64,000 nucleotides of DNA from IMG/VR virus record IMGVR_UViG_3300048999_000166, positions 1 through 64,000 of that record. The stretch is one strand, 5' to 3'. Below the pieces are notes generated by a model. It made no database searches and was not told the origin of the DNA. It saw only the letters and a list, made by a program, of their open reading frames with translations. The position numbers and the translations under genes were made by a program. Each line of letters starts with the position of its first letter. The first letter of the stretch is position 1. Below, in pieces: positions 14,467-23,532 of the stretch. This DNA is from a virus.

Positions 14467-14509
14467 GGGCTGAGTTGCCCGGGGCTGACCGAGTAGCGAG
14501 TACTCGGTC
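14467..14509 (-). promoter_or_regulatory. Two-hairpin leader (copy 1)
   Basis: Read on the minus strand: hairpin 1 (9-bp stem, 14487-14509) is followed by hairpin 2, GGGC-AACTCA-GCCC (14467-14480), then the Shine-Dalgarno and ATG 14443. One of eleven copies of the same layout. Confidence 0.75.
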
Positions 14510-14522
14510 ACCCCCTGGATAC

Positions 14523-14819
14523 TCAGGACTTGAGGATCTTGTAGGCCAACGCTGCGCTGAACGCGTACTGGAACACGCACGCGATGGCGAGCAGTGGCCA
14601 GTCAATCGGGGTGCCGTCGACTCGATAGACGATCAGTCCGAGCACGGCGAGCACGGCCACGAACGGGAGCGGGAGTAGCAGGATCTTGCGCCAGACGCTC
14701 CGCTCTTGTTCCTTCCTCATCAGGGCTTCTACCACCTCCTTCTCGTTGGCTACGTAGCCGTAGACAGGCTCTAGGGCGTTGAGGAGCTGGTTGCGACTCA
14801 TGCGGTCGTAGTCGTTCAC
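14523..14819 (-). CDS. Two-TM membrane protein
   Basis: A 98-residue protein from GTG 14819 (GTGA overlap). A charged N-terminal half is followed by two hydrophobic segments, ILLLPLPFVAVLAVLGLIVY and LLAIACVFQYAFSAALAY, separated by a short loop. It should sit in the cytoplasmic membrane with the N-terminal domain probably inside. Function unknown. Confidence 0.75.
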   Translation of the reverse strand: MNDYDRMSRNQLLNALEPVYGYVANEKEVVEALMRKEQERSVWRKILLLPLPFVAVLAVLGLIVYRVDGTPIDWPLLAIACVFQYAFSAALAYKILKS

Positions 14820-15010
14820 CTCGCGTCCTTCGTCTGCCCGTACCACTCCGCGTGGCATAGGCGGCAGAAGAACTCCAGGCACTCCGGGCGCGATCGCCAG
14901 CGGCTCTCGGCCTTGAACCTGACCGAGATCGACATAGTGCCCGCTCCGCACTTGACGCACCGGTGGTCGACGGGTGCCCGGAACGGTTGTAGGGCGTACT
15001 TGGTACTCAA
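14816..15010 (-). CDS. Small zinc-ribbon protein
   Basis: A 64-residue protein from TTG 15010 with an AAGGAGGG Shine-Dalgarno. CVKCGAG and FCRLCHAEW form a four-cysteine zinc ribbon. It follows a two-hairpin leader. Function unknown. Confidence 0.7.
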   Translation of the reverse strand: MSTKYALQPFRAPVDHRCVKCGAGTMSISVRFKAESRWRSRPECLEFFCRLCHAEWYGQTKDAR

Positions 15011-15027
15011 CTGCCCTCCTTGATCGT

Positions 15028-15077
15028 TGAGCTGAGTTGCTCACCCACGGGCCGGAGCTGTGGAAGCCTCCGACCCG
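15028..15077 (-). promoter_or_regulatory. Two-hairpin leader (copy 2)
   Basis: Hairpin 1 spans 15048-15077. Hairpin 2 is TGAGC-AACTCA-GCTCA type (15028-15043): the same loop as copy 1 on a different stem. It lies between the DUF932 gene and the 14816 gene. Confidence 0.75.
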
Positions 15078-15088
15078 TCGAGTACGAC

Positions 15089-16138
15089 TCAGATCAGCTG
15101 CAGCCCGTGCAGCGCTTCGAGCACTCCGGCGTCGGTCTTCTCGACCTTGCCCGACAGCGTGTCGAACATGTTCCGCTCGACCCGCTGCGTCTCACCGCGC
15201 ACCGGGCGCTCGTGCTGGTCCCAGGTGTTGAACAGCTGCAGCACCCCGAACGCGTTGTCCTTCCAGGGCGCGACGCGCGGGTCGGTGTGCAGCATCGAGG
15301 TGAGCGCGTTGCGCTTGTTGTGCGCGGCGTTCTGGGCCAGCGGCGAGGACTCCTCGTCGACCGGAACCAGTACGCTGAGCACCTCCTTGAACTGCAGGTT
15401 CCCGATCTTTGCGCTGGTCAGCTGCCGCACCGCCGCCTCGAAGTTCTTCGAGGTCGACTCGATGATCTTCAGCGCATCGCGGGTCTGAGCGACCTTGTAG
15501 CCGGAGTTCGCGGTGTGCTTGAACTTCAGCGTGGTGCCCTCCTCGGTCAGAGCTGCGGACAGCGTGTTGTCGCAGACCGTCGCACCGATCGTGCGCTTGT
15601 AGGTCGTGGCGAGCGTTCCGTCGAACGAGGTGGCCGAGAGCAGGTTGGGCCGGTAGAGCACATCGTTGATGCTCTTGGTCTCCGGAACGCTGACCTCGGT
15701 CCACATCACCGCGCGGTTGCGCAGCAGACCCGCCGAAGAGATGATCAGATCGTCTGACAGCAGGCCCTGGATGTTCTCCAGCAGCCACTCCTTGAACTGG
15801 TGGGGCTTGTACCCCGCCTTGAACAGCCCGAGGGTCTCGTGTGTGTCGGACGTATCGATCGCCTGACGATCACGCTGCACCGCCCAGCGCAGCGGCTCAC
15901 CGCTCTCACCGAGATGGGTCATGTTCTCGTACGTCGCGGGCTTCTCGACCGCGACGCGCCGGGAGACGGCCTCCCAGTCGATCAAGCGACGCTCGACGTC
16001 GGCGTAGGGGATCGGGCCCGTGTAGTGGTTGGGCTCCGCGCCCTGGCTCGACTTGCGGTAGTGCCAGGCGTTGCCGCGCTCGGCAGTCATGCCGACCAGC
16101 ACGTTCTGGTTCAGCCACTGAGAGGTTTCCTTCGACAT
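15089..16138 (-). CDS. DUF932 (phage/plasmid-like) protein
   Basis: A 349-residue protein with features of the DUF932/TIGR03299 family found on phages and plasmids: an N-terminal Trp-rich region (LNQNVLVGMTAERGNAWHY), the central VCDNTLSAAL motif, FKHTANSGYKV and a late LLQLFNTWDQHERPV stretch. The biochemical role of the family is not known. It is the largest gene of this leftward block and has its own promoter region (16201-16230), so it may be strongly expressed early. Confidence 0.85.
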   Translation of the reverse strand: MSKETSQWLNQNVLVGMTAERGNAWHYRKSSQGAEPNHYTGPIPYADVERRLIDWEAVSRRVAVEKPATYENMTHLGESGEPLRWAVQRDRQAIDTSDTHETLGLFKAGYKPHQFKEWLLENIQGLLSDDLIISSAGLLRNRAVMWTEVSVPETKSINDVLYRPNLLSATSFDGTLATTYKRTIGATVCDNTLSAALTEEGTTLKFKHTANSGYKVAQTRDALKIIESTSKNFEAAVRQLTSAKIGNLQFKEVLSVLVPVDEESSPLAQNAAHNKRNALTSMLHTDPRVAPWKDNAFGVLQLFNTWDQHERPVRGETQRVERNMFDTLSGKVEKTDAGVLEALHGLQLI

Positions 16139-16200
16139 GGTCTGTGTCCTTTTGATCTAGTGAGTGTGGGTGTTAGTGCTGGTCGGGCCTTATGGAACCT

Positions 16201-16230
16201 ATCTTACCGGACTACGGGCGACTTCGCCAA
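16201..16230 (-). promoter_or_regulatory. Promoter for the DUF932 gene
   Basis: Minus strand: -35 TTGGCG (16225-16230), 18-bp spacer, -10 TAAGAT (16201-16206). The leader downstream contains CGACCAGC, shared with the leaders at 18.5 and 19.7 kb. Confidence 0.6.
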
Positions 16231-16243
16231 CTTGGTTTGAACT

Positions 16244-16492
16244 TCAGTCGACGTGGTTGTCGCGGTAGTCGTCCGGGTCCTGGTAGTACTCCGGGTCGTT
16301 GCGGTCGAGCTGCGGCACGGACACTTCGCCGGCCTCGATCAGGTCGCGGGCGGTGCGCCCGTAACTTCCTTGTAGGGACCAGGCGAGGCCAGTATCGACC
16401 AGCTCCTGGAACAACTCGACGGTCTCCTCGTCGGTGAGCATCGCGTGCTCGTAGTCGAGCAACCGGTTGTTGACGTCAACCATGTTCGACAT
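16244..16492 (-). CDS. Small acidic hypothetical protein
   Basis: An 82-residue acidic protein from ATG 16492 behind GAGAGGA. It reads LLDYEHAMLTDEETVELFQELVDTGLAWSLQGSYGRTARDLIEAGEV, a pattern common in short actinophage proteins of unknown function. An in-frame upstream ATG at 16510 has no better ribosome site. Confidence 0.75.
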   Translation of the reverse strand: MSNMVDVNNRLLDYEHAMLTDEETVELFQELVDTGLAWSLQGSYGRTARDLIEAGEVSVPQLDRNDPEYYQDPDDYRDNHVD

Positions 16493-16625
16493 CTCGGTTC
16501 TTCCTCTCAAGTTCTTTGATCTTGGTTTGCTGGAGTCGGACCAGCATGGTCAGTGCGAAGACCCAGAAGGTCAGCAGGTAGTTGACTCCTACCTGCGACC
16601 ACTCGGCCAGCTCGTGCAGGGTCAT
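16476..16625 (-). CDS. Single-TM miniprotein
   Basis: A 49-residue protein from ATG 16625 with an ATGA overlap with the upstream stop. A transmembrane segment (VNYLLTFWVFALTMLVRL) is followed by a charged cytoplasmic-type tail (KIKELERKNRDVEHG). The stop overlaps the next gene by 17 bases. Its position in an unbroken chain of overlapping genes supports it. Confidence 0.65.
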   Translation of the reverse strand: MTLHELAEWSQVGVNYLLTFWVFALTMLVRLQQTKIKELERKNRDVEHG

Positions 16626-16864
16626 GTCTTGTCTCCGTCCCGGTACCACTTCTCTCGCTCGTCCGCCCAGGCGATCAGCGATTCACCGAGCTGGCGAGCA
16701 GTCCGGGTGCCGTCGATGTTGATCTGGACGATGCGCCCGATGTGAACGTCGGGCCCATCGATGATGCGGGCTTGGAGGCTGAACGTGCGCGGTGACGGTC
16801 CGAGGGTGCGTAGCGCCATGTTGGTGAACGCACCCACTCGGGCGTAGAACGGCTTCTTGCTCAC
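16622..16864 (-). CDS. Hypothetical protein
   Basis: An 80-residue protein from GTG 16864 (GTGA overlap). Its beta-rich centre (RTFSLQARIIDGPDVHIGRIVQINIDG) is followed by a helix with Trp and charged residues. No family recognised. Confidence 0.65.
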   Translation of the reverse strand: MSKKPFYARVGAFTNMALRTLGPSPRTFSLQARIIDGPDVHIGRIVQINIDGTRTARQLGESLIAWADEREKWYRDGDKT

Positions 16865-17076
16865 TTCCTGGTCAACTCCCTCAGTACTTGATCCTTCTTG
16901 CCGGTGCCGGTGAAGCGCCGGCTCTCGCTGTTGGCGTAGGTGACGCCGCCCCGTACTGAGAACTCGATGAACACCCACCGCTTACCCTTGCGGGCGTTGA
17001 TCGTTCCCATGCCGGTCGTCACCTCCCACCCGTGCAGCCGGGCGACACCGAGGATCTCATCAGCCGCGCGTGCCAT
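16861..17076 (-). CDS. Hypothetical protein
   Basis: A 71-residue protein from ATG 17076, chosen for the GGAG seven bases upstream; ATG 17088 is an alternative that would overlap the preceding gene. It has a helix then beta strands (HGWEVTTGMGTINARKGKRWVFIEFSVRGGVTYA) and a basic end. It resembles small RNA- or DNA-binding folds only in general terms. Confidence 0.6.
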   Translation of the reverse strand: MARAADEILGVARLHGWEVTTGMGTINARKGKRWVFIEFSVRGGVTYANSESRRFTGTGKKDQVLRELTRK

Positions 17077-17078
17077 GG

Positions 17079-17372
17079 TCAGCTCCATCGATGTAGTGGG
17101 GCCAGATCGGGCGGGTGTTCGGAGTATCCGTCGGGGTACATCACGCTCGGTCCCATTAGCCAGTTGTCGAGCGTCGGCGGGCCAGCGGGCACCGGGTAGT
17201 CGATCGTGCTGAAACCGTCGAGCCACTCGGAGTGCGACATGTCGCTGCCCCAGTCGTTGAGGCCAGGCAGCTCGAACACCTCGCGGTACTCAGCCGCGGC
17301 CACCGCGTTGAGCGCGACGGCGTAGCGGGCCTGGATGTCACGGACGCGTTCGCTGTTGAGGTAGTAAGCCAT
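17079..17372 (-). CDS. Hypothetical protein
   Basis: A 97-residue protein behind a two-hairpin leader and an AAGGAG site. A helical N terminus (RVRDIQARYAVALNAVAAAEYREV) leads to a Pro/Trp/Tyr-rich C terminus. No family recognised. Confidence 0.65.
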   Translation of the reverse strand: MAYYLNSERVRDIQARYAVALNAVAAAEYREVFELPGLNDWGSDMSHSEWLDGFSTIDYPVPAGPPTLDNWLMGPSVMYPDGYSEHPPDLAPLHRWS

Positions 17373-17402
17373 GATCTTGTTCTCCTTGGCTGGGTTGCGA
17401 TC

Positions 17403-17441
17403 GGGCTGAACCGCCCGCGCCGCGCCCGGTCACACTCCGGG
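17403..17441 (-). promoter_or_regulatory. Two-hairpin leader (copy 3)
   Basis: Hairpin 1 CCCGG/CCGGG (17425-17441); hairpin 2 GGGC-GGTTCA-GCCC (17403-17416); then the Shine-Dalgarno and ATG 17372. Confidence 0.7.
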
Positions 17442-17464
17442 GGCGACGCTAGTGGTTCACCTCC

Positions 17465-17707
17465 TTACTTGATCAGCTCCTTCAGCTCTTCCTTGACCCG
17501 CTTGGCGACCGGGCCGCGCCAGTTGCGGGCGTTCGACAGGAAGTAGATGACGATCTCCTTCGCGTCGTCCTCCCCGAACTTGTCGTCGATCGCGGTCAGG
17601 TACTGCATCGCGTCGAGGTAGGGCACCGCTCCGAAGTAGACGTTGAGCCACTCGCGGGCGATCTCGTCGGCGATCTCGTGGATCGGGCGGACGTCGACTG
17701 CACTCAT
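17465..17707 (-). CDS. Hypothetical protein
   Basis: An 80-residue helical protein (IHEIADEIAREWLNVYFGAVPYLDAMQYL ... RVKEELKELIK) starting at ATG 17707 behind a two-hairpin leader. Repeats of similar length and style across this block suggest small host-interaction proteins. No family recognised. Confidence 0.65.
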   Translation of the reverse strand: MSAVDVRPIHEIADEIAREWLNVYFGAVPYLDAMQYLTAIDDKFGEDDAKEIVIYFLSNARNWRGPVAKRVKEELKELIK

Positions 17708-17728
17708 GATCTTGCCTCTCTGTTCGGT

Positions 17729-17769
17729 AGTCCCTGAGTGGACTATCGGCCGGGCGTGTCACTCGCCCG
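17729..17769 (-). promoter_or_regulatory. Two-hairpin leader (copy 4)
   Basis: Hairpin 1 CGGGCG/CGCCCG (17751-17769); hairpin 2 AGTCC-ACTCAG-GGACT (17729-17744), where the stem has changed on both sides compared with the GGGC/GCCC copies. Confidence 0.75.
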
Positions 17770-17783
17770 ACCTCCTAGATCAC

Positions 17784-18146
17784 TCAGGCCCACGGTCGCA
17801 GTTGCCTCGGTGCGAACGGGGTCATCACATCGTTCACGATCACTTCGTAGGTCACTCCCCGCTGCGGGTAGGCCGAGGCGATGTAGCGGGTCTCGGTGGC
17901 GATCTGCTCACGGTCGGTCGAGCTGACCGGGACCGCGCGGTAGAGGGTGCCCTTGTGACGGAGTCCGGTGGTGTAGTCGACAGTCAGTCGCCGCGTACGT
18001 TCGCGCTTGAGTCGCGTCACTCGACCGATCTGCGCGTTGATCGAGTCGTCGCTCAAGTAGCGGATCAGGTCCCCTTCGAGCGATCGCTCAGTGGTGCGGA
18101 TCGCCTCGTCAAGCTCGAAGTCGCTCCAGTCATCGAAAGCAGTCAT
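17784..18146 (-). CDS. Hypothetical protein
   Basis: A 120-residue protein with an acidic helical N terminus (FDDWSDFELDEAIRTTERSLEGDLIRYL), a basic middle (RLKRERTRRL) and a beta-rich C terminus ending GVTYEVIVNDV. It starts at ATG 18146 after a two-hairpin leader. No family recognised. Confidence 0.65.
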   Translation of the reverse strand: MTAFDDWSDFELDEAIRTTERSLEGDLIRYLSDDSINAQIGRVTRLKRERTRRLTVDYTTGLRHKGTLYRAVPVSSTDREQIATETRYIASAYPQRGVTYEVIVNDVMTPFAPRQLRPWA

Positions 18147-18167
18147 GATCTTTACCTCTCTTGATCC

Positions 18168-18216
18168 AGTCCTGAGTTGGACTACAGACCTACCGGGCTG
18201 GCAGTACCGGTAGGTC
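18168..18216 (-). promoter_or_regulatory. Two-hairpin leader (copy 5)
   Basis: Hairpin 1 is a 10-bp stem (18187-18216). Hairpin 2 is AGTCC-AACTCA-GGACT (18168-18183). Confidence 0.75.
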
Positions 18217-18227
18217 GACTAGCTCAC

Positions 18228-18464
18228 TCAGAGCAGGCGGCTCAGCTCTCGCTCGCCGGGGTTGTCATCGCGCGGGGCGACAACGGTGGTGTCCTCGGGA
18301 TTGCGGAACACGAATTGTCCGCGACCATTGATCACTCCGTGGGCGGAAACGACGGGCTTTCGAGTCTCGGTGGTGAGGGTCAAACCACTCACTCGCCAGT
18401 ACCCGGGCAACTCGGTAAAGGTCACGAGATCGCCGGTGCGGGGAAGAGATTCGATCTTGCTCAT
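18228..18464 (-). CDS. Small beta-rich hypothetical protein
   Basis: A 78-residue protein (TGDLVTFTELPGYWRVSGLTLTTETRKPVVSAHG), probably a small beta-barrel. It is the first gene after a predicted promoter and the GACCAGC leader. Function unknown. Confidence 0.65.
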   Translation of the reverse strand: MSKIESLPRTGDLVTFTELPGYWRVSGLTLTTETRKPVVSAHGVINGRGQFVFRNPEDTTVVAPRDDNPGERELSRLL

Positions 18465-18517
18465 CTTCTTGGTCCTTTTCGGCTGGGTGTTTGGGCTGGT
18501 CAGGCCCTATCGGAACT

Positions 18518-18547
18518 ATCATACCGTACAACCGACAAGCACGTCGG
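18518..18547 (-). promoter_or_regulatory. Promoter with GACCAGC leader
   Basis: Minus strand: CCGACG (18542-18547), 18-bp spacer, -10 TATGAT (18518-18523). Downstream comes a leader with TGACCAGCCC, matching the layout upstream of the DUF932 gene. Confidence 0.5.
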
Positions 18548-18602
18548 ATTGTTCCTGAAATGATCTAGCACTCAGTCAACTTGACGTAGGAGGTGTTGAC
18601 CT

Positions 18603-19058
18603 ATGGCGAAGACGCTCCCGATCGAGACCGCCGAGCGGGAAGATCTCATCATCGATCTTCACGGCCAACATCTCCCGTGGCGAGAGATCTCTCGGCGGGT
18701 GGGGCTGAGCCATGAGCGCTGCCGCCAGATCTTCCAAGCCGCTCGTGACCGCATTCCGGCCGAGCGGCTGAACGATCTGCGCGTCGATCACCATGAGCTG
18801 GCGTACCGCGCAATTCACGATCTGCTCCAGATGGCGGAGAACCCGCAGATCTCGCCGCGCACTCGGGCCGAGTGTTGGAACGCGATCCGCGGCTGGAGCG
18901 AGTCCGACCGCAAGCTCTACGGGGTAGACGCGCCGACGCGCCGCGAGATCACCGTGATCTCCGACGACGCGATCAGCAACGCCATCACCGAACTCAACCG
19001 CGAGATGTCCGCGCTCGACGCTCAGGCCCGCGAACTCGGCATCTCGGTCGACGCTTAG
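18603..19058 (+). CDS. HTH DNA-binding protein, small-terminase-like
   Basis: A 151-residue protein with a perfect TAGGAGG site, the only rightward gene in the 10-24 kb block. The N-terminal HTH reads LIIDLHGQHLPWREISRRVGLSHERCRQIF. The C-terminal half, RTRAECWNAIRGWSESDRKLYGVDAPTRREITV followed by an amphipathic helix, is the style seen in small terminase subunits (the '..RkLyGlDAPtr' segment). No other TerS candidate lies beside the large terminase at 26.5 kb. It could equally be a transcription regulator for the divergent leftward operon. Confidence 0.7.
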   Translation: MAKTLPIETAEREDLIIDLHGQHLPWREISRRVGLSHERCRQIFQAARDRIPAERLNDLRVDHHELAYRAIHDLLQMAENPQISPRTRAECWNAIRGWSESDRKLYGVDAPTRREITVISDDAISNAITELNREMSALDAQARELGISVDA

Positions 19059-19630
19059 ATCTCAGTCCGGCGGTTGCGGATCCGTTCGATCCGCGCCGTT
19101 GGGCTGACGTGGTTGAGGTAGGTCGCGGTCGTGTCCAGGTGGGTGTGCCCGAGCTGGTCTCGGATCTCCATCACCGGCACGCCCTCCTGTGCCCACTCGA
19201 CAGCCGCGGTGTGCCGCAGTCCGTGAGCGTGCACCCGCTTGTCCACGCCCGCCCGCGCCGCTACTCGTTTCATCATGGCGCGGACGTAGCTGGTCGAGAC
19301 GGGGCCGCCCTTGAGGGTGCAGAACAGGTGGCGACCGCGTAGCCCGTGGGCGCGCCGCACTTCGATCCAGCGCACGACGTGCACGAGTGCGCCGAGATCG
19401 ATGCCGACCGTCCGGGACTTGTCACCCTTACCGTGCAGCACCCGGACGCTGGCCGCGTCAGTGTCCACATCGGACACTTTCAGCGCCAGCGCCTCGGACA
19501 CCCGCAGCCCCGCTCCGTACATCACGGCGATCAGGGCTCGGTTGCGGACACCAGTCGGTGCTCGATCCGATGGAGCGAGCAGAATTGATCTTGCCTCTTC
19601 CCGGGTCAAGATCTCTACCGGGTACCTCAT
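19055..19630 (-). CDS. Minimal tyrosine recombinase (catalytic domain only)
   Basis: A 191-residue integrase/Xer-family enzyme. The catalytic residues are all visible: R43 in GAGLRVSEAL, K68 in HGKGDK, H136 and R139 in HAHGLRHT, H162 in LGHTHLDTT, nucleophile Y171 in ATYLNHV. The protein begins directly at the catalytic domain; the arm-binding and core-binding N-terminal domains of phage integrases (usually 100-180 residues more) are absent, and an SD and hairpin precede the ATG, so this is not an obvious truncation. It may be a dimer resolvase or an integrase relying on another DNA-binding factor. Its stop overlaps the convergent HTH gene. Confidence 0.9.
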   Translation of the reverse strand: MRYPVEILTREEARSILLAPSDRAPTGVRNRALIAVMYGAGLRVSEALALKVSDVDTDAASVRVLHGKGDKSRTVGIDLGALVHVVRWIEVRRAHGLRGRHLFCTLKGGPVSTSYVRAMMKRVAARAGVDKRVHAHGLRHTAAVEWAQEGVPVMEIRDQLGHTHLDTTATYLNHVSPTARIERIRNRRTEI

Positions 19631-19650
19631 GTTGATCTCCTTCGACGCCT

Positions 19651-19682
19651 AGAGTGTCGGATCCTCAGGGAACCGACACTCT
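19651..19682 (-). terminator. Hairpin in the recombinase leader
   Basis: A perfect 10-bp stem, AGAGTGTCGG/CCGACACTCT, with a 12-nt loop, about 20 bases upstream of the recombinase ATG. Without a U-tract it looks more like a 5'-UTR hairpin (control of translation or RNA stability) than a terminator. It replaces the hairpin 1/hairpin 2 pair of the neighbouring leaders. Confidence 0.55.
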
Positions 19683-19714
19683 ATTGGCGTCTTGGCTGGT
19701 CAGTGGCTGGGTGG

Positions 19715-19720
19715 ATCTTA
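19715..19720 (-). promoter_or_regulatory. Possible -10 element upstream of the recombinase
   Basis: Minus-strand TAAGAT is followed about 20 bases later by CTGACCAGCC, the layout of the promoters at 16.2 and 18.5 kb. The best -35 is TTGATC with a 19-bp spacer, so the assignment is weak. Confidence 0.4.
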
Positions 19721-19741
19721 GAAACGATACTCTATCCGTGA

Positions 19742-20362
19742 TCAACTGTCCTCGGCGTAGCGCCGTGCGGACCGGTGCGGCAGCGAGTCGGTAAGATCAA
19801 CTTGCACCGTCCAGGTCACCGCTTGGACCACCTGAGGCAGCTCGTCCAGTCGACGAGCGGCCTCACGGTACGCGTGCGCCAGCGTCGCGTACCGACGCTT
19901 GGTGGACAGTCCCCGATCGCGGTTGCCGTAGATCTCCCCGACCGCGATGTCATGCGCGTGCCGGTCGATCACTACCGCCTCAGCGTCCGTCGGATCGATG
20001 ATCGCCCGGAAGAAATTCCAGGTCTTCGAGTCGTCCGGCAGCACATCGAGCGGGTCCGCTCCGAGCATGATCCGCTCGGCCTTCCCGACCGCGTCGCGCA
20101 CCTGGCCGCGAACCTCGCCGGTAGCGAATGCTTCCCGAGCTAGTTTCACGTTGAAGGCCCAAGCTTTCTGGGGCGACAGAGCCGCGATCACTCCGGCCGC
20201 CGCCCGCGTGTTGCCCTCAGACATGAGGGTCGCCAGCTCGTTAGCGTGCGGGTACCACTGCCGGCCGCGGTCGATCTGCTCCGGGGTGGCCAGGTTCCAC
20301 GTGCTGATGATGTTTCGGACGTAGGTCTCGTGCTGTTCGTCGGTGGCGGTCGTCGGGATCAT
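19742..20362 (-). CDS. Helical protein with conserved VIDRHA motif, unknown function
   Basis: A 206-residue, mostly helical protein. Notable segments: VIAALSPQKAWAFNVKLAREAF, a KAERIMLG stretch, KTWNFFRAI, and AEAVVIDRHAHDIAVG. The order 'AALSP..N...A ... K...F...I ... VIDRHA' is reminiscent of helix-hairpin-helix DNA-glycosylase-like folds, with D as the possible key acid, but I cannot confirm the relation. It follows a two-hairpin leader and the CAAGACAACC iterons. Confidence 0.6.
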   Translation of the reverse strand: MIPTTATDEQHETYVRNIISTWNLATPEQIDRGRQWYPHANELATLMSEGNTRAAAGVIAALSPQKAWAFNVKLAREAFATGEVRGQVRDAVGKAERIMLGADPLDVLPDDSKTWNFFRAIIDPTDAEAVVIDRHAHDIAVGEIYGNRDRGLSTKRRYATLAHAYREAARRLDELPQVVQAVTWTVQVDLTDSLPHRSARRYAEDS

Positions 20363-20384
20363 GGTCTGTCTCCTCTGTACTCAC

Positions 20385-20428
20385 GGGCTGAACCGCCCGA
20401 GCGGTGCACCGACCAGGGCCGGTGCACC
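20385..20428 (-). promoter_or_regulatory. Two-hairpin leader (copy 6)
   Basis: Hairpin 1 GGTGCACCG/CGGTGCACC (20403-20428); hairpin 2 GGGC-GGTTCA-GCCC (20385-20398). Confidence 0.75.
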
Positions 20429-20457
20429 ACTCTCCGATGGTTCAGACAGCTTGCAAA

Positions 20458-20513
20458 GGTTGTCTTGTTGTGCAGAGGTTGTCTTGCTTGCAAAGGTTGT
20501 CTTGGTTGTCTTG
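20458..20513 (-). repeat. CAAGACAACC direct repeats (iteron-like)
   Basis: Four perfect copies of CAAGACAACC (plus-strand GGTTGTCTTG) at 20458, 20477, 20495 and 20504, spaced 19, 18 and 9 bp. The first and third are flanked by TTTGCAAG, giving an 18-bp unit. They lie just downstream of the AAA+ ATPase gene. Candidate binding array for a replication or regulatory protein. Confidence 0.75.
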
Positions 20514-20526
20514 CTAGATCAACAAC

Positions 20527-21648
20527 CTAGGCGGCCAGCGGTGGCGGGTCCAAGCCCACCGCGTCGCGGGAGTAGCCGCGTACCTGAGTGCCCTTCCAGT
20601 ACTGCCGTTCGGCATGCGCCTCGAACACGGCCAGTCCGTTAGCGAGCCCCATATCAGCGGACCGATCCGACTGCCACTCATCCATGATCGACGTACGCTG
20701 AGGCAGCGCCTCCAGCCTGACCAGGATCTCGGCGGTCGGCAGGAAGTCATCACCGTCAGTGAACGTCGCCTGAACGTTGGCGAGCAACTCTTCGAACGGG
20801 TCCAAGATCGCCTCGTCCTCAGGCGCCCACTTGCCTAGCGCGAACGTGTTCGCGGCCTTCTCGACACGCTCCGGCCACGCGTCACCCAGGTATCGGGCGA
20901 TCCGGAATAGGACCGTCCAGATCTCCTCTGCTCGGTTGGCGATGTCCTCTGACATCAATCCTTCGATCGGAATCGAGAGGATCGAGCTAGCGGCATTGCC
21001 ACCCCAACGGGTGAGACGCTCCCGGAGTGCCATGACTCGATCGTCATGCAACTCCGGGTTATACCGGGCGAGCCGAACGTCACGCGGCTTAGGTTCGAGG
21101 ATGATCGAAATCGACCTCGAACGGAGCGTATCGAACGGACCGTCGGGCATAAACCAGACACTCGCGTTCTTGCCATTGAGCACCATCGGCCCGAACGGGT
21201 CGAGCCGCTCGGCGACGCCACCGCGTACCTGAGTTACCTTCGCTCCACCGCGCCGGTATCCCATATTCAGGATGCCCTTCATGCGCAGCTTAGAGTTCGC
21301 GCCGCGCCCGAAGTGGGTGTCGATTTCATCGAACCCGAGCGTTGCGTGATCTTCGTTCATCATCGCCACGATGGACGGCGGACTAGGATCGCCGATCATC
21401 TCGCCGTTGAAGCTCAGCGCGATGGTCAACTCGGTGGCCAGGGACTTACCGGCGCCCGGTTGCTTCGATCCGAAGTACAGCCGCGGCGTGACGCGGGGCA
21501 GCAATCGCCCATCGTTGTCGCGTAGGTGGGTGTGCATAGCCCACAGAGTCGACACCACATAGGCCGAATCATTCGGCATGTGCATAAACTCGCGGTACAC
21601 CCGCTCTACCTGATTGGCCAGGAGTTGATCCTGGGTGAACTTTCTCAT
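20527..21648 (-). CDS. AAA+ ATPase, DUF3631-like
   Basis: A 373-residue protein from ATG 21648. Walker A is GSKQPGAGKS (60-69) and the Walker B region is LGFDEIDTHFG (105-113). A conserved DTLRSRSISIILEPK segment follows, typical of DUF3631-type ATPases found in mycobacterial and phage primase-helicase-like proteins. It may load or act as a helicase at a secondary origin; the iterons just downstream fit such a role. It is preceded by a leader and a good promoter (21738-21766). Confidence 0.8.
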   Translation of the reverse strand: MRKFTQDQLLANQVERVYREFMHMPNDSAYVVSTLWAMHTHLRDNDGRLLPRVTPRLYFGSKQPGAGKSLATELTIALSFNGEMIGDPSPPSIVAMMNEDHATLGFDEIDTHFGRGANSKLRMKGILNMGYRRGGAKVTQVRGGVAERLDPFGPMVLNGKNASVWFMPDGPFDTLRSRSISIILEPKPRDVRLARYNPELHDDRVMALRERLTRWGGNAASSILSIPIEGLMSEDIANRAEEIWTVLFRIARYLGDAWPERVEKAANTFALGKWAPEDEAILDPFEELLANVQATFTDGDDFLPTAEILVRLEALPQRTSIMDEWQSDRSADMGLANGLAVFEAHAERQYWKGTQVRGYSRDAVGLDPPPLAA

Positions 21649-21675
21649 GATCGATTTCCTCTTGGCTGGAGCATT

Positions 21676-21717
21676 GGGCTGTACCGCCCGAGCACGGCAG
21701 GGTCGCATTCCCTGCCG
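21676..21717 (-). promoter_or_regulatory. Two-hairpin leader (copy 7)
   Basis: Hairpin 1 CGGCAGGG/CCCTGCCG (21695-21717); hairpin 2 GGGC-GGTACA-GCCC (21676-21689). Confidence 0.75.
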
Positions 21718-21737
21718 CACTCCCTAGGCACAGTTCA

Positions 21738-21766
21738 ATTGTAGCCTATTACTGACTCACAGTCGA
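21738..21766 (-). promoter_or_regulatory. Promoter for the AAA+ ATPase gene
   Basis: Minus strand: TCGACT (21761-21766), 17-bp spacer, TACAAT (21738-21743; five of six match to TATAAT). The transcript would start just before hairpin 1 of the leader. Confidence 0.65.
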
Positions 21767-21840
21767 CCGGTCGCTTGCAAGAAGCCACCGACCAGGCCGA
21801 CCATCCAGAATGACGCCACGTAAGCGATATCCCACCTCAT
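21757..21840 (-). CDS. 27-residue membrane miniprotein
   Basis: ATG 21840 lies two bases after the upstream stop. The product RWDIAYVASFWMVGLVGGFL plus a short polar tail is a single membrane-spanning helix. The ribosome site is weak (GGAACGG is distant) and it overlaps the promoter region of the next gene, so it could be spurious. Confidence 0.35.
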   Translation of the reverse strand: MRWDIAYVASFWMVGLVGGFLQATGRL

Positions 21841-21842
21841 GA

Positions 21843-22127
21843 TCAAACCGCCGTTCCGGGGTACTGAACGGCGCTGGTCACGTAAGCGGGCGCGCTCTCC
21901 ATCACGAATTCCTTGCCAACGTCACCTACTGGGTGCAGCAGGCTGGACAACAGGTGGACTTTGAGCATTCCCATTCCGACGCTCACCTTGAGAAAGGTGC
22001 GGACGCCGTCGTGGTAGGTATCCACCCAGAACCGCTTCATATCGGTCTCAGCGTGGTGCAGCTTGCCGTGTGCGGGGTGCGCCGGGTGAAGATTGGCGCG
22101 CTGCATACGGGCAACGGTGCGGTTCAT
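21843..22127 (-). CDS. Hypothetical protein
   Basis: A 94-residue His-rich protein from ATG 22127 behind GAGGAG (GTG 22136 is too close to that site). It has NRTVARMQRANLHPAHPAHGKLHHAETDMKRF, then a beta-rich part. No family recognised. Confidence 0.65.
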   Translation of the reverse strand: MNRTVARMQRANLHPAHPAHGKLHHAETDMKRFWVDTYHDGVRTFLKVSVGMGMLKVHLLSSLLHPVGDVGKEFVMESAPAYVTSAVQYPGTAV

Positions 22128-22149
22128 CTGGATCACTCCTCATCGGTAC

Positions 22150-22193
22150 GGGCTGAATCGCCCGGCAGACGCTCCGGAGCTAGCTCCGGAGCG
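22150..22193 (-). promoter_or_regulatory. Two-hairpin leader (copy 8)
   Basis: Hairpin 1 is a perfect palindrome (22170-22193); hairpin 2 GGGC-GATTCA-GCCC (22150-22163). Confidence 0.75.
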
Positions 22194-22204
22194 ACCCGCA
22201 CGGT

Positions 22205-22633
22205 TCAGTAACTAGCCACCGATTGCCCGGCCGCAAAGTCGAACACGGCCAACTGATCATGCTCACGCGCTAGGGCTAGTGCGCGGTCGCGGTCGGTGAC
22301 CAGCGTCGAGACGTCGAGGTAGATACGTCCGTCGGCAGGGTCGCGCCAACCACCAAACACGGCGCCGTCGCGCGCTAGCGCGTCCGCGTGCCGTACTACG
22401 TACTCGATCAAGTCACCAGGGGTGACCGAACCGAGCACCACACCCTCTCCGGGGTAGACGCTGACCGCATAACCTCCGGTCACGTCCGCGCCCGTGTGCG
22501 GGTCGATCGTGAAACCATCATCGGGGCGGGTGAGCCGCTCGGCCAGTTCGACCAGCCGCGGCTGTACCGCCGTGAGCGCGTCCCTATCCTCGCGTGCCCA
22601 CTCGGCCACGCGCGGATCGTAGGCAGCAGTCAT
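22205..22633 (-). CDS. Hypothetical protein
   Basis: A 142-residue acidic protein from ATG 22633 behind AAGGACAAGATC. Helical N terminus, then GYAVSVYPGEGVVLGSVTPGDLIEYVVRHADAL and a C-terminal helix-strand. No family recognised. It is one of the longer genes of the short-gene cassette array. Confidence 0.7.
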   Translation of the reverse strand: MTAAYDPRVAEWAREDRDALTAVQPRLVELAERLTRPDDGFTIDPHTGADVTGGYAVSVYPGEGVVLGSVTPGDLIEYVVRHADALARDGAVFGGWRDPADGRIYLDVSTLVTDRDRALALAREHDQLAVFDFAAGQSVASY

Positions 22634-22658
22634 GATCTTGTCCTTAGCTCGACGTGCC

Positions 22659-22704
22659 GGGCTGACTTGCCCGAGCGTCGGCACCGGAGCGAACTCCGGT
22701 GCCG
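22659..22704 (-). promoter_or_regulatory. Two-hairpin leader (copy 9)
   Basis: Hairpin 1 has an 11-bp stem closing a TTCG tetraloop (22679-22704), the very stable UUCG type in RNA. Hairpin 2 is GGGC-AAGTCA-GCCC (22659-22672). Confidence 0.8.
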
Positions 22705-22716
22705 CACTCTGTGCGG

Positions 22717-22899
22717 TCAGGCCACCTGTTCGAACGTGACGTTCAGCGGGAATCCGAACGTGTCGTGCCAGCGCTTGTCCACCGCGGCTACGTGCTGCTT
22801 CAACTGCGGGAACGTCCCCGTGTAGGCGGTCCGCGAGTTCACCTGACCGTTGATCTTGGTGGTCACGGTGTACTTATGGATCTTCTCTGCGTAATTCAT
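22717..22899 (-). CDS. Small hypothetical protein
   Basis: A 60-residue protein from ATG 22899 with GAGGAG five bases upstream. Beta-rich start (KYTVTTKINGQVNSRTAYTG) then a helix with Lys/His/Trp. No family recognised. Confidence 0.65.
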   Translation of the reverse strand: MNYAEKIHKYTVTTKINGQVNSRTAYTGTFPQLKQHVAAVDKRWHDTFGFPLNVTFEQVA

Positions 22900-22916
22900 G
22901 ATCACTCCTCAGTGAA

Positions 22917-22963
22917 GGGCTGACTTGCCCGCGCAGGGCACCGGAGCCGAACTCCGATGCCCT
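22917..22963 (-). promoter_or_regulatory. Two-hairpin leader (copy 10)
   Basis: Hairpin 1 is a 12-bp stem with one G-T wobble and a TTCGG loop (22935-22963); hairpin 2 GGGC-AAGTCA-GCCC (22917-22930). Confidence 0.8.
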
Positions 22964-22973
22964 CCGCATGCAC

Positions 22974-23180
22974 TCAGGCCAGATGACGCCGCTTGGCTTC
23001 TCGCCTCACCGCGCGCCCACCTAGGATCGTGTGAATATCAGGCACTACAACATCATCGTGCATCTTGATCAAGTGCCGTAGCGCGCCGTCGGTCACAACG
23101 GCCCGGTTGGCTGTCAGATCCCGCAGCGCCCGAACACGGGCGCGGAGGTCGGCTGACGTCAGAATCTGTACGTCACTCAT
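22974..23180 (-). CDS. Small basic hypothetical protein
   Basis: A 68-residue helical basic protein (DLRARVRALRDLTANRAVV ... GGRAVRREAKRRHLA) behind AGGACAAGATC and a leader. Possibly nucleic-acid binding; no family recognised. Confidence 0.6.
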   Translation of the reverse strand: MSDVQILTSADLRARVRALRDLTANRAVVTDGALRHLIKMHDDVVVPDIHTILGGRAVRREAKRRHLA

Positions 23181-23198
23181 GATCTTGTCCTCTCACTA

Positions 23199-23246
23199 GG
23201 GCTGACTTGCCCGCGCAGAGCACCGGCCCGTGTGGGCCGATGCTCT
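23199..23246 (-). promoter_or_regulatory. Two-hairpin leader (copy 11)
   Basis: Hairpin 1 is a 13-bp stem with one G-T wobble and an ACAC loop (23217-23246); hairpin 2 GGGC-AAGTCA-GCCC (23199-23212). Confidence 0.8.
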
Positions 23247-23256
23247 CCGCATGCGG

Positions 23257-23463
23257 TCAGAACTCCTCGTGATCCACTACGTCCCGGAACACCCGCCGTA
23301 CGCGGTCGGCCCGCTCGGTGAGCGGTCCGTACGCGGGCGGCCACTCCAGCTGCTCTAGCGTTGCCGCTACTTGCTGGACGATCACCTCTCGTCCACTGGT
23401 CATCCGCTCCGCCCGCAGGCGGTAGGTGGCGGACCGGCTGGACATGAGCGGTACTGCAGTCAT
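23257..23463 (-). CDS. Small basic helical protein
   Basis: A 68-residue protein (MSSRSATYRLRAERMTSGREVIVQQVAATLEQLEWPP ... RVRRVFRDVV) behind a CGGAG site. Its upstream region carries the parS palindrome where other genes in this row have hairpin 1. No family recognised. Confidence 0.6.
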   Translation of the reverse strand: MTAVPLMSSRSATYRLRAERMTSGREVIVQQVAATLEQLEWPPAYGPLTERADRVRRVFRDVVDHEEF

Positions 23464-23510: not shown

Positions 23511-23532
23511 GCATGTTTCACGTGAAACATGC
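23511..23532. promoter_or_regulatory. parS: Perfect parS (ParB-binding) site
   Basis: Positions 23514-23529 read TGTTTCACGTGAAACA, identical to the chromosomal ParB-binding consensus of most bacteria including Actinobacteria. The palindrome extends three bases further on each side. Host ParB would be expected to bind and spread from here. No ParB or ParA gene was recognised in the window. As RNA it would also form the first hairpin of the leader of the 23257 gene. Confidence 0.85.

Follow-up and report, generated by a model that had tools for sequence, protein, structure and literature searches.

The window (the whole 64,000-nucleotide stretch of DNA that was analysed, taken from a 122,429-base phage record) contains eleven minus-strand genes that each carry a structured leader of 57-64 nt 5' of the start, and the order of pairing strands in these leaders is that of an H-type pseudoknot with an inserted hairpin. 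The block occupies 14467 to 23259 on the minus strand. Each element runs from the helix A 5' strand (A5) through hairpin P1, B5, a six-base loop (A3) and B3 to the ribosome site and start. The loop of hairpin 2 (B) is the 3' strand of the pseudoknot; in most copies the bases it pairs with contain the stop codon of the gene before, which is why the loop ends in TCA. A5 lies at the stop codon or, depending on the leader, beyond the stop and a short spacer. As in an H-type RNA pseudoknot, a hairpin loop pairs outside its own hairpin with covariation in support, and the fold itself is close to certain. A sequence-only reading had described eleven leftward leaders in the order stop codon, hairpin 1, hairpin 2, Shine-Dalgarno and start, and all were present on the minus strand. 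Its coordinates, 14467-23246, gave the right location, but the end should be 23259, because the first copy's 5' strand extends that far. The loop that it described as kept had six bases in all eleven copies; however, it is not an unpaired recognition sequence, since it pairs at or near the stop codon. The selection on RNA structure that it proposed was strongly supported by covariation, although for a pseudoknot and not for two independent hairpins.

Helix A was 5-7 bp long in seven window copies, 4 bp in three (W1, W3 and W4) and 3 bp in one (W2). Hairpin 2 was closed by the three stems already reported from the sequence: GGGC/GCCC in eight copies (W1 through W6, W9 and W11), AGTCC/GGACT in two (W7 and W8) and TGAGC/GCTCA in one (W10). 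All copies are on the minus strand. W1 (23199..23259, start 23180) has A5 TGACCG at 23254-23259, overlapping the stop, and the loop AAGTCA at 23203-23208; W3 (22659..22719, start 22633) has the same A5, a UUCG loop in P1 and the loop AAGTCA at 22663-22668, and both form TGAC/GTCA. W2 (22917..22976, start 22899), with A5 TGAGTG and the loop AAGTCA at 22921-22926, is a near-copy of W1 and the weakest copy, with only 3 contiguous A pairs. In W4 (22150..22207, start 22127), A5 TGAACC and the loop GATTCA (22154-22159) form TGAA/TTCA and one further pair past a mismatch. W5 (21676..21733, start 21648) has its A5, CTGTGCC, off the stop codon, about 20 nt past the upstream stop, and its loop GGTACA (21680-21685) departs from TCA together with the change in its 5' strand, so that TGTGCC/GGTACA gives 6-7 bp with one G-U. 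The pairing TGAACC/GGTTCA (6 bp) was found in W6 (20385..20444, loop 20389-20394, start 20362), where A5 is about 85 nt past the upstream stop TAG, and in W9 (17403..17459, loop 17407-17412, start 17372), where it is 6 nt past the stop TAA. The remaining four copies pair TGAGT with ACTCA. W7 (18168..18230, start 18146), W10 (15028..15091, TTG start at 15010) and W11 (14467..14525, start 14443) each have A5 TGAGT, which in W10 is at the stop of the DUF932 gene, and the loop AACTCA (18173-18178, 15033-15038 and 14471-14476, respectively), giving 5 bp. W8 (17729..17787, start 17707) has A5 CTGAGT and the loop ACTCAG (17734-17739), giving 6 bp with the loop register shifted by one.

Hairpin 1 (P1) is a long hairpin of free sequence inserted between A5 and B. 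RNAfold z-scores against dinucleotide shuffles were -2.85 to -6.85 in 11 of 11 copies, at most 3 of 200 shuffles folded as well in any copy, and one or two copies had a UUCG loop; these results bear out the earlier description of a gene-specific hairpin that keeps its pairing. P1 abuts B directly in most window copies, at a distance of 0-1 base in nine and three bases in W7 and W8, and this close abutment suggests that P1 and B stack on each other. Just past B comes the ribosome site for the following gene; B itself ends 17-30 nt before the start codon. The base preceding A5 was C in 37 of 39 elements, a count partly forced by the search pattern, and could add a pair to helix A, with the first base of B3 as its partner. 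The closing pair of B was always C-G in an alignment of 28 strings.

No Rfam family matched the window leaders. The whole pseudoknot does not fit a covariance model, and custom scans and pair counting were therefore used. A pseudoknot was scored in 22 of 33 intergenic gaps of the window and of phages Volt and Bongo compared to 3.35 expected from dinucleotide shuffles, in a scan whose window matches at W2 and W4 were alternative foldings and not the element, and which missed W1, W3 and W6. When the loops were permuted, P was 0.0005 in the window by itself and < 0.0001 overall. We excised 28 distinct A5-B5-A3-B3 strings and put them in register by eye; registers were set by hand for W5, W8 and three Volt/Bongo copies. 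In these strings, 89.6% of cells were paired compared to 69.9% after shuffling, a level reached by 0 of 500 shuffles, and the covariation score was 0.467 compared to 0.108 for shuffled strings and 0.02-0.10 for slid structures. Covariation beyond chance, on which the sequence-only reading had staked its claim, was thus found. Double-sided compensatory changes were seen in 9 of the 10 A and B pairs. Many of the contigs had been picked by patterns with fixed CTGA, TCA and GGGC/GCCC. Because of this selection and of the registers set by eye, the claim of covariation in helix A rests on positions 4-6, two of which (4 and 5) one contig-selecting pattern scan had left entirely free, together with the sets from the window, Volt and Bongo. 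At helix A positions 4-5, 55 of 68 cells were paired where chance would give 30.8 (P < 0.0001). When these positions were left free in the pattern, both paired in 13 of 23 leader-context matches compared to 4.0 after shuffling. Related Volt and Keelan leaders differ in their A and B sequences and keep the pairing. The prediction for TAG stops was also tested: two leaders, both with a perfect helix, had CTA in the loop (TAGGT/ACCTA and TAGACC/GGTCTA), and a mismatched TAG/TCA control pattern gave one leader-context match, which was unpaired. A scan for GGTC stems found few leaders, and its result taken alone was only borderline significant (P = 0.058).

Other IMG/VR contigs carry several copies of the element, as an exact-pattern scan showed, and with those added by further scans it is present in many metagenomic phage contigs. 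The same kind of scan of genome contigs gave mostly isolated chance matches. Of two viral contigs, L005 shows synteny with the window and L007 has genes in common with it, at the DUF7178 gene. Repeated copies were present in intergenic gaps of the Gordonia phages Volt and Keelan and of Mycobacterium phage Bongo, and single leaders in Mycobacterium phages Cuke and Fowlmouth, Microbacterium phage OneinaGillian and Gordonia phage Lilbeanie. The fold occurs between many adjacent genes in the phage of the window and in a range of actinobacterial phages. The repeats of the cluster EC type in Microbacterium phage RobsFeet were rejected as a different motif. A variant pseudoknot with kept UGAAUCAAC...GAUGGAUUCAA was seen in two different phages, at about 2183-2125 (minus strand) of contig L036 and in gaps 1753, 2139 and 2555 of Gordonia phage Orchid (L112), and is possibly a separate RNA class.

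Several other features lie near the window leaders. Just upstream of the leftward leader block, at 23514-23529, is the exact palindrome TGTTTCACGTGAAACA, which is the parS centromere consensus; the same 16-mer is found in Orchid inside a leader hairpin (L112, gap 2139-2250). The genome of the window (G000) has a weak ParB_N domain at 101508-101675. Several direct repeats of AAGACAACC are present at 20446-20527, between the DUF3631 gene and leader W6. A protein pattern search for DUF3631 returned no relatives in viral or genome contigs, although the homologue in L005 is 56% identical. A short tyrosine recombinase of 191 aa, consisting of the catalytic domain only, is encoded at 19055-19630; it is 92% identical to its L005 counterpart, and several adjacent genes are 54-78% identical.

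A second kind of RNA was found in the equivalent slot of two contigs. Between successive leftward genes, contig L036 carries three pseudoknots, two of the standard form and one a variant whose loop has 11 bases, and also a type II hammerhead ribozyme (Hammerhead_II, RF02276, 45.1 bits). All four RNAs follow a stop codon, and the hammerhead and 2 of the 3 pseudoknots precede a nearly identical region around the ribosome site; the stem II strand of the hammerhead begins at the stop codon. Contig L127 has a hammerhead about 0.9 kb from a pseudoknot leader on the same strand, which scored 32.2 bits, below the family cut-off, with a full CUGAUGA/GAAA core and stem II overlapping the stop TAG. A hammerhead was present in only these 2 of 28 contigs or genomes that carried, or had been selected for, the pseudoknot, all of them searched for hammerheads. 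The slot equivalence is thus based on few cases, one of which is below the Rfam cut-off. Streptomyces phages Spernnie and Alvy (L010 and L011) have about nine type II hammerheads per genome (nine in Spernnie), mostly in early intergenic gaps, and these may form a phage-wide intercistronic ribozyme system. Type II hammerheads are known in bacteria, and haloviruses HF1 and HF2 have a hammerhead variant 13 nt upstream of the helicase start codon (PMC3088659).

We infer that RNA is bounded or processed at the leaders, and also which agent would be responsible. The module has about an even chance of being an intercistronic RNA boundary or processing element that separates adjacent messages. The equivalent slots favor message separation because a hammerhead only cuts, and an RNase or termination module, as the sequence-only reading had offered, is the better fit given the type II hammerheads in two contigs. 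The module would mark the RNA boundary between adjacent translation units and do the job of a type II hammerhead in the equivalent slot of relatives. The pseudoknot would fold on the nascent message as a compact block and part the end of the upstream message from the downstream ribosome site, probably permitting the cell to cut or trim there, so that the mRNA of every gene could have a separate end and nothing would obstruct its start. The agent would most likely be a host nuclease, for example RNase III, for which the stacked P1/B helix would be the substrate; or else the block may stop an exonuclease.

Processing does not require the usual overlap with the stop codon, which could instead be a sign of translational coupling, the main rival to the message-boundary reading. 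A terminating ribosome would open helix A, and otherwise the pseudoknot, lying just upstream of the next ribosome site, would hinder 30S loading or re-initiation there. A5 overlaps or adjoins the stop codon in most copies and tracks its identity (TGA with TCA, TAG with CTA), and the end of B, 17-30 nt before the start, coincides with the upstream limit of the 30S footprint. However, the Shine-Dalgarno sequence is outside the fold, copies that are off the stop (W5, W6, W9 and several in Volt) still pair, and the overlap may reflect compactness, as the hammerheads of both contigs overlap the stop too. Such a switch is unlikely.

Quite unlikely is a new class of self-cleaving ribozyme that cuts between genes as the hammerheads do, or a ribosome-gated cleavage element; the pseudoknot would then be interchangeable with hammerheads and cut polycistronic mRNA at stop codons. 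The slot shared with type II hammerheads speaks for it, as does the pistol ribozyme, which likewise has a 6-base loop wholly paired in a pseudoknot and for which Orchid has a match (L112:9561-9634, 34.2-36.9 bits, about the gathering score). That match lies after gene 99, upstream of tRNA/tmRNA genes. However, the information content of the four junction positions that follow A5 is 0.01-0.30 bits across 39 elements, the only invariant columns are the closing pair of B, and no Rfam ribozyme matched. Without a conserved unpaired core, a new ribozyme becomes less likely and a structure recognised by its shape more so, either a nuclease substrate or an exonuclease barrier. Covariance-model searches for hammerhead and pistol (RF02276 and RF02679) gave no match in the genome of the window, and the CUGAUGA/GAAA hammerhead core is absent from the eleven window copies. 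A circularly permuted pistol was rejected, having no linker and no P2. The genome record contains no RtcB RNA ligase, an enzyme that would suit ribozyme ends.

About as improbable is that a phage or host translational regulator binds the pseudoknot shape, in the way that T4 gp32 recognises a pseudoknot on its own mRNA. The element is repeated before many non-structural genes with a constant shape and a near-constant 57-64 nt in total, but it has no constant unpaired sequence, one phage contains many different A and B sequences, and no candidate regulator was identified. Transcription terminators, antiterminators or put-like polymerase-modifying RNAs would account for stable hairpins within an operon, between its genes, but are very improbable, as neither hairpin is followed by a U-run, the 17-30 nt from B to the start are too few for a promoter, and polymerase-modifying RNAs normally occur once per operon.

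Among known systems, T7 early-region RNase III sites and the T4 gene 32 leader pseudoknot are, respectively, structured intercistronic RNAs that set message ends and a translational pseudoknot; neither is usually anchored to a stop codon or repeated with free sequence before many genes. The likeness to cluster K start-associated sequences (SAS) suggested by the sequence-only reading held for position only, as repeats before the starts of a subset of non-structural genes. No copy of the 13-bp SAS, GGGATAGGAGCCC, which lies near start codons, was found in the window at up to 2 mismatches; SAS overlaps the ribosome site, unlike the window element. The extended repeats (ESAS) are 17-bp imperfect inverted repeats with a shared consensus and a 4-13 bp spacer, whereas hairpin 1 is wholly different in each copy, and in the cluster K study itself there was little to support RNA hairpins in ESAS (PMC3203893). 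In cluster M mycobacteriophages, the available part of the literature text describes a stem-loop upstream of the conserved repeats CR3/CR4, between many right-end genes, and for CR3/CR4 it speaks of stem-loops only (PMC7953290). To the extent of that text, part of the phenomenon is already published for one cluster, and its member Bongo carries the same pseudoknot in intergenic gaps; the window is without a constant ribosome-site repeat like that of Bongo. The fold appears to be undescribed, as a literature search, whose reach did not include the original cluster M report, found no description of the pseudoknot. With no Rfam match here, the element could become a new family. The type II hammerhead (RF02276) resembles it in the equivalent slot between stop and ribosome site, a 5' strand on the stop (in two contigs), two hairpins and a final pairing to the 5' strand, but the window element is without the CUGAUGA/GAAA core. 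The pistol ribozyme (RF02679) also has a 6-base hairpin loop fully engaged in a pseudoknot, but in another strand order and with an AUAAAUA linker that the window element does not have. One compact fold, tied to the preceding stop codon, explains a class of intergenic hairpin leaders in actinobacteriophages and links them to ribozymes in equivalent slots. Its function is directly testable in cultured M. smegmatis and Gordonia phages. If messages are separated at these leaders, the element would be a natural counterpart of synthetic ribozyme insulators, and translation units would be predictable in these phages.
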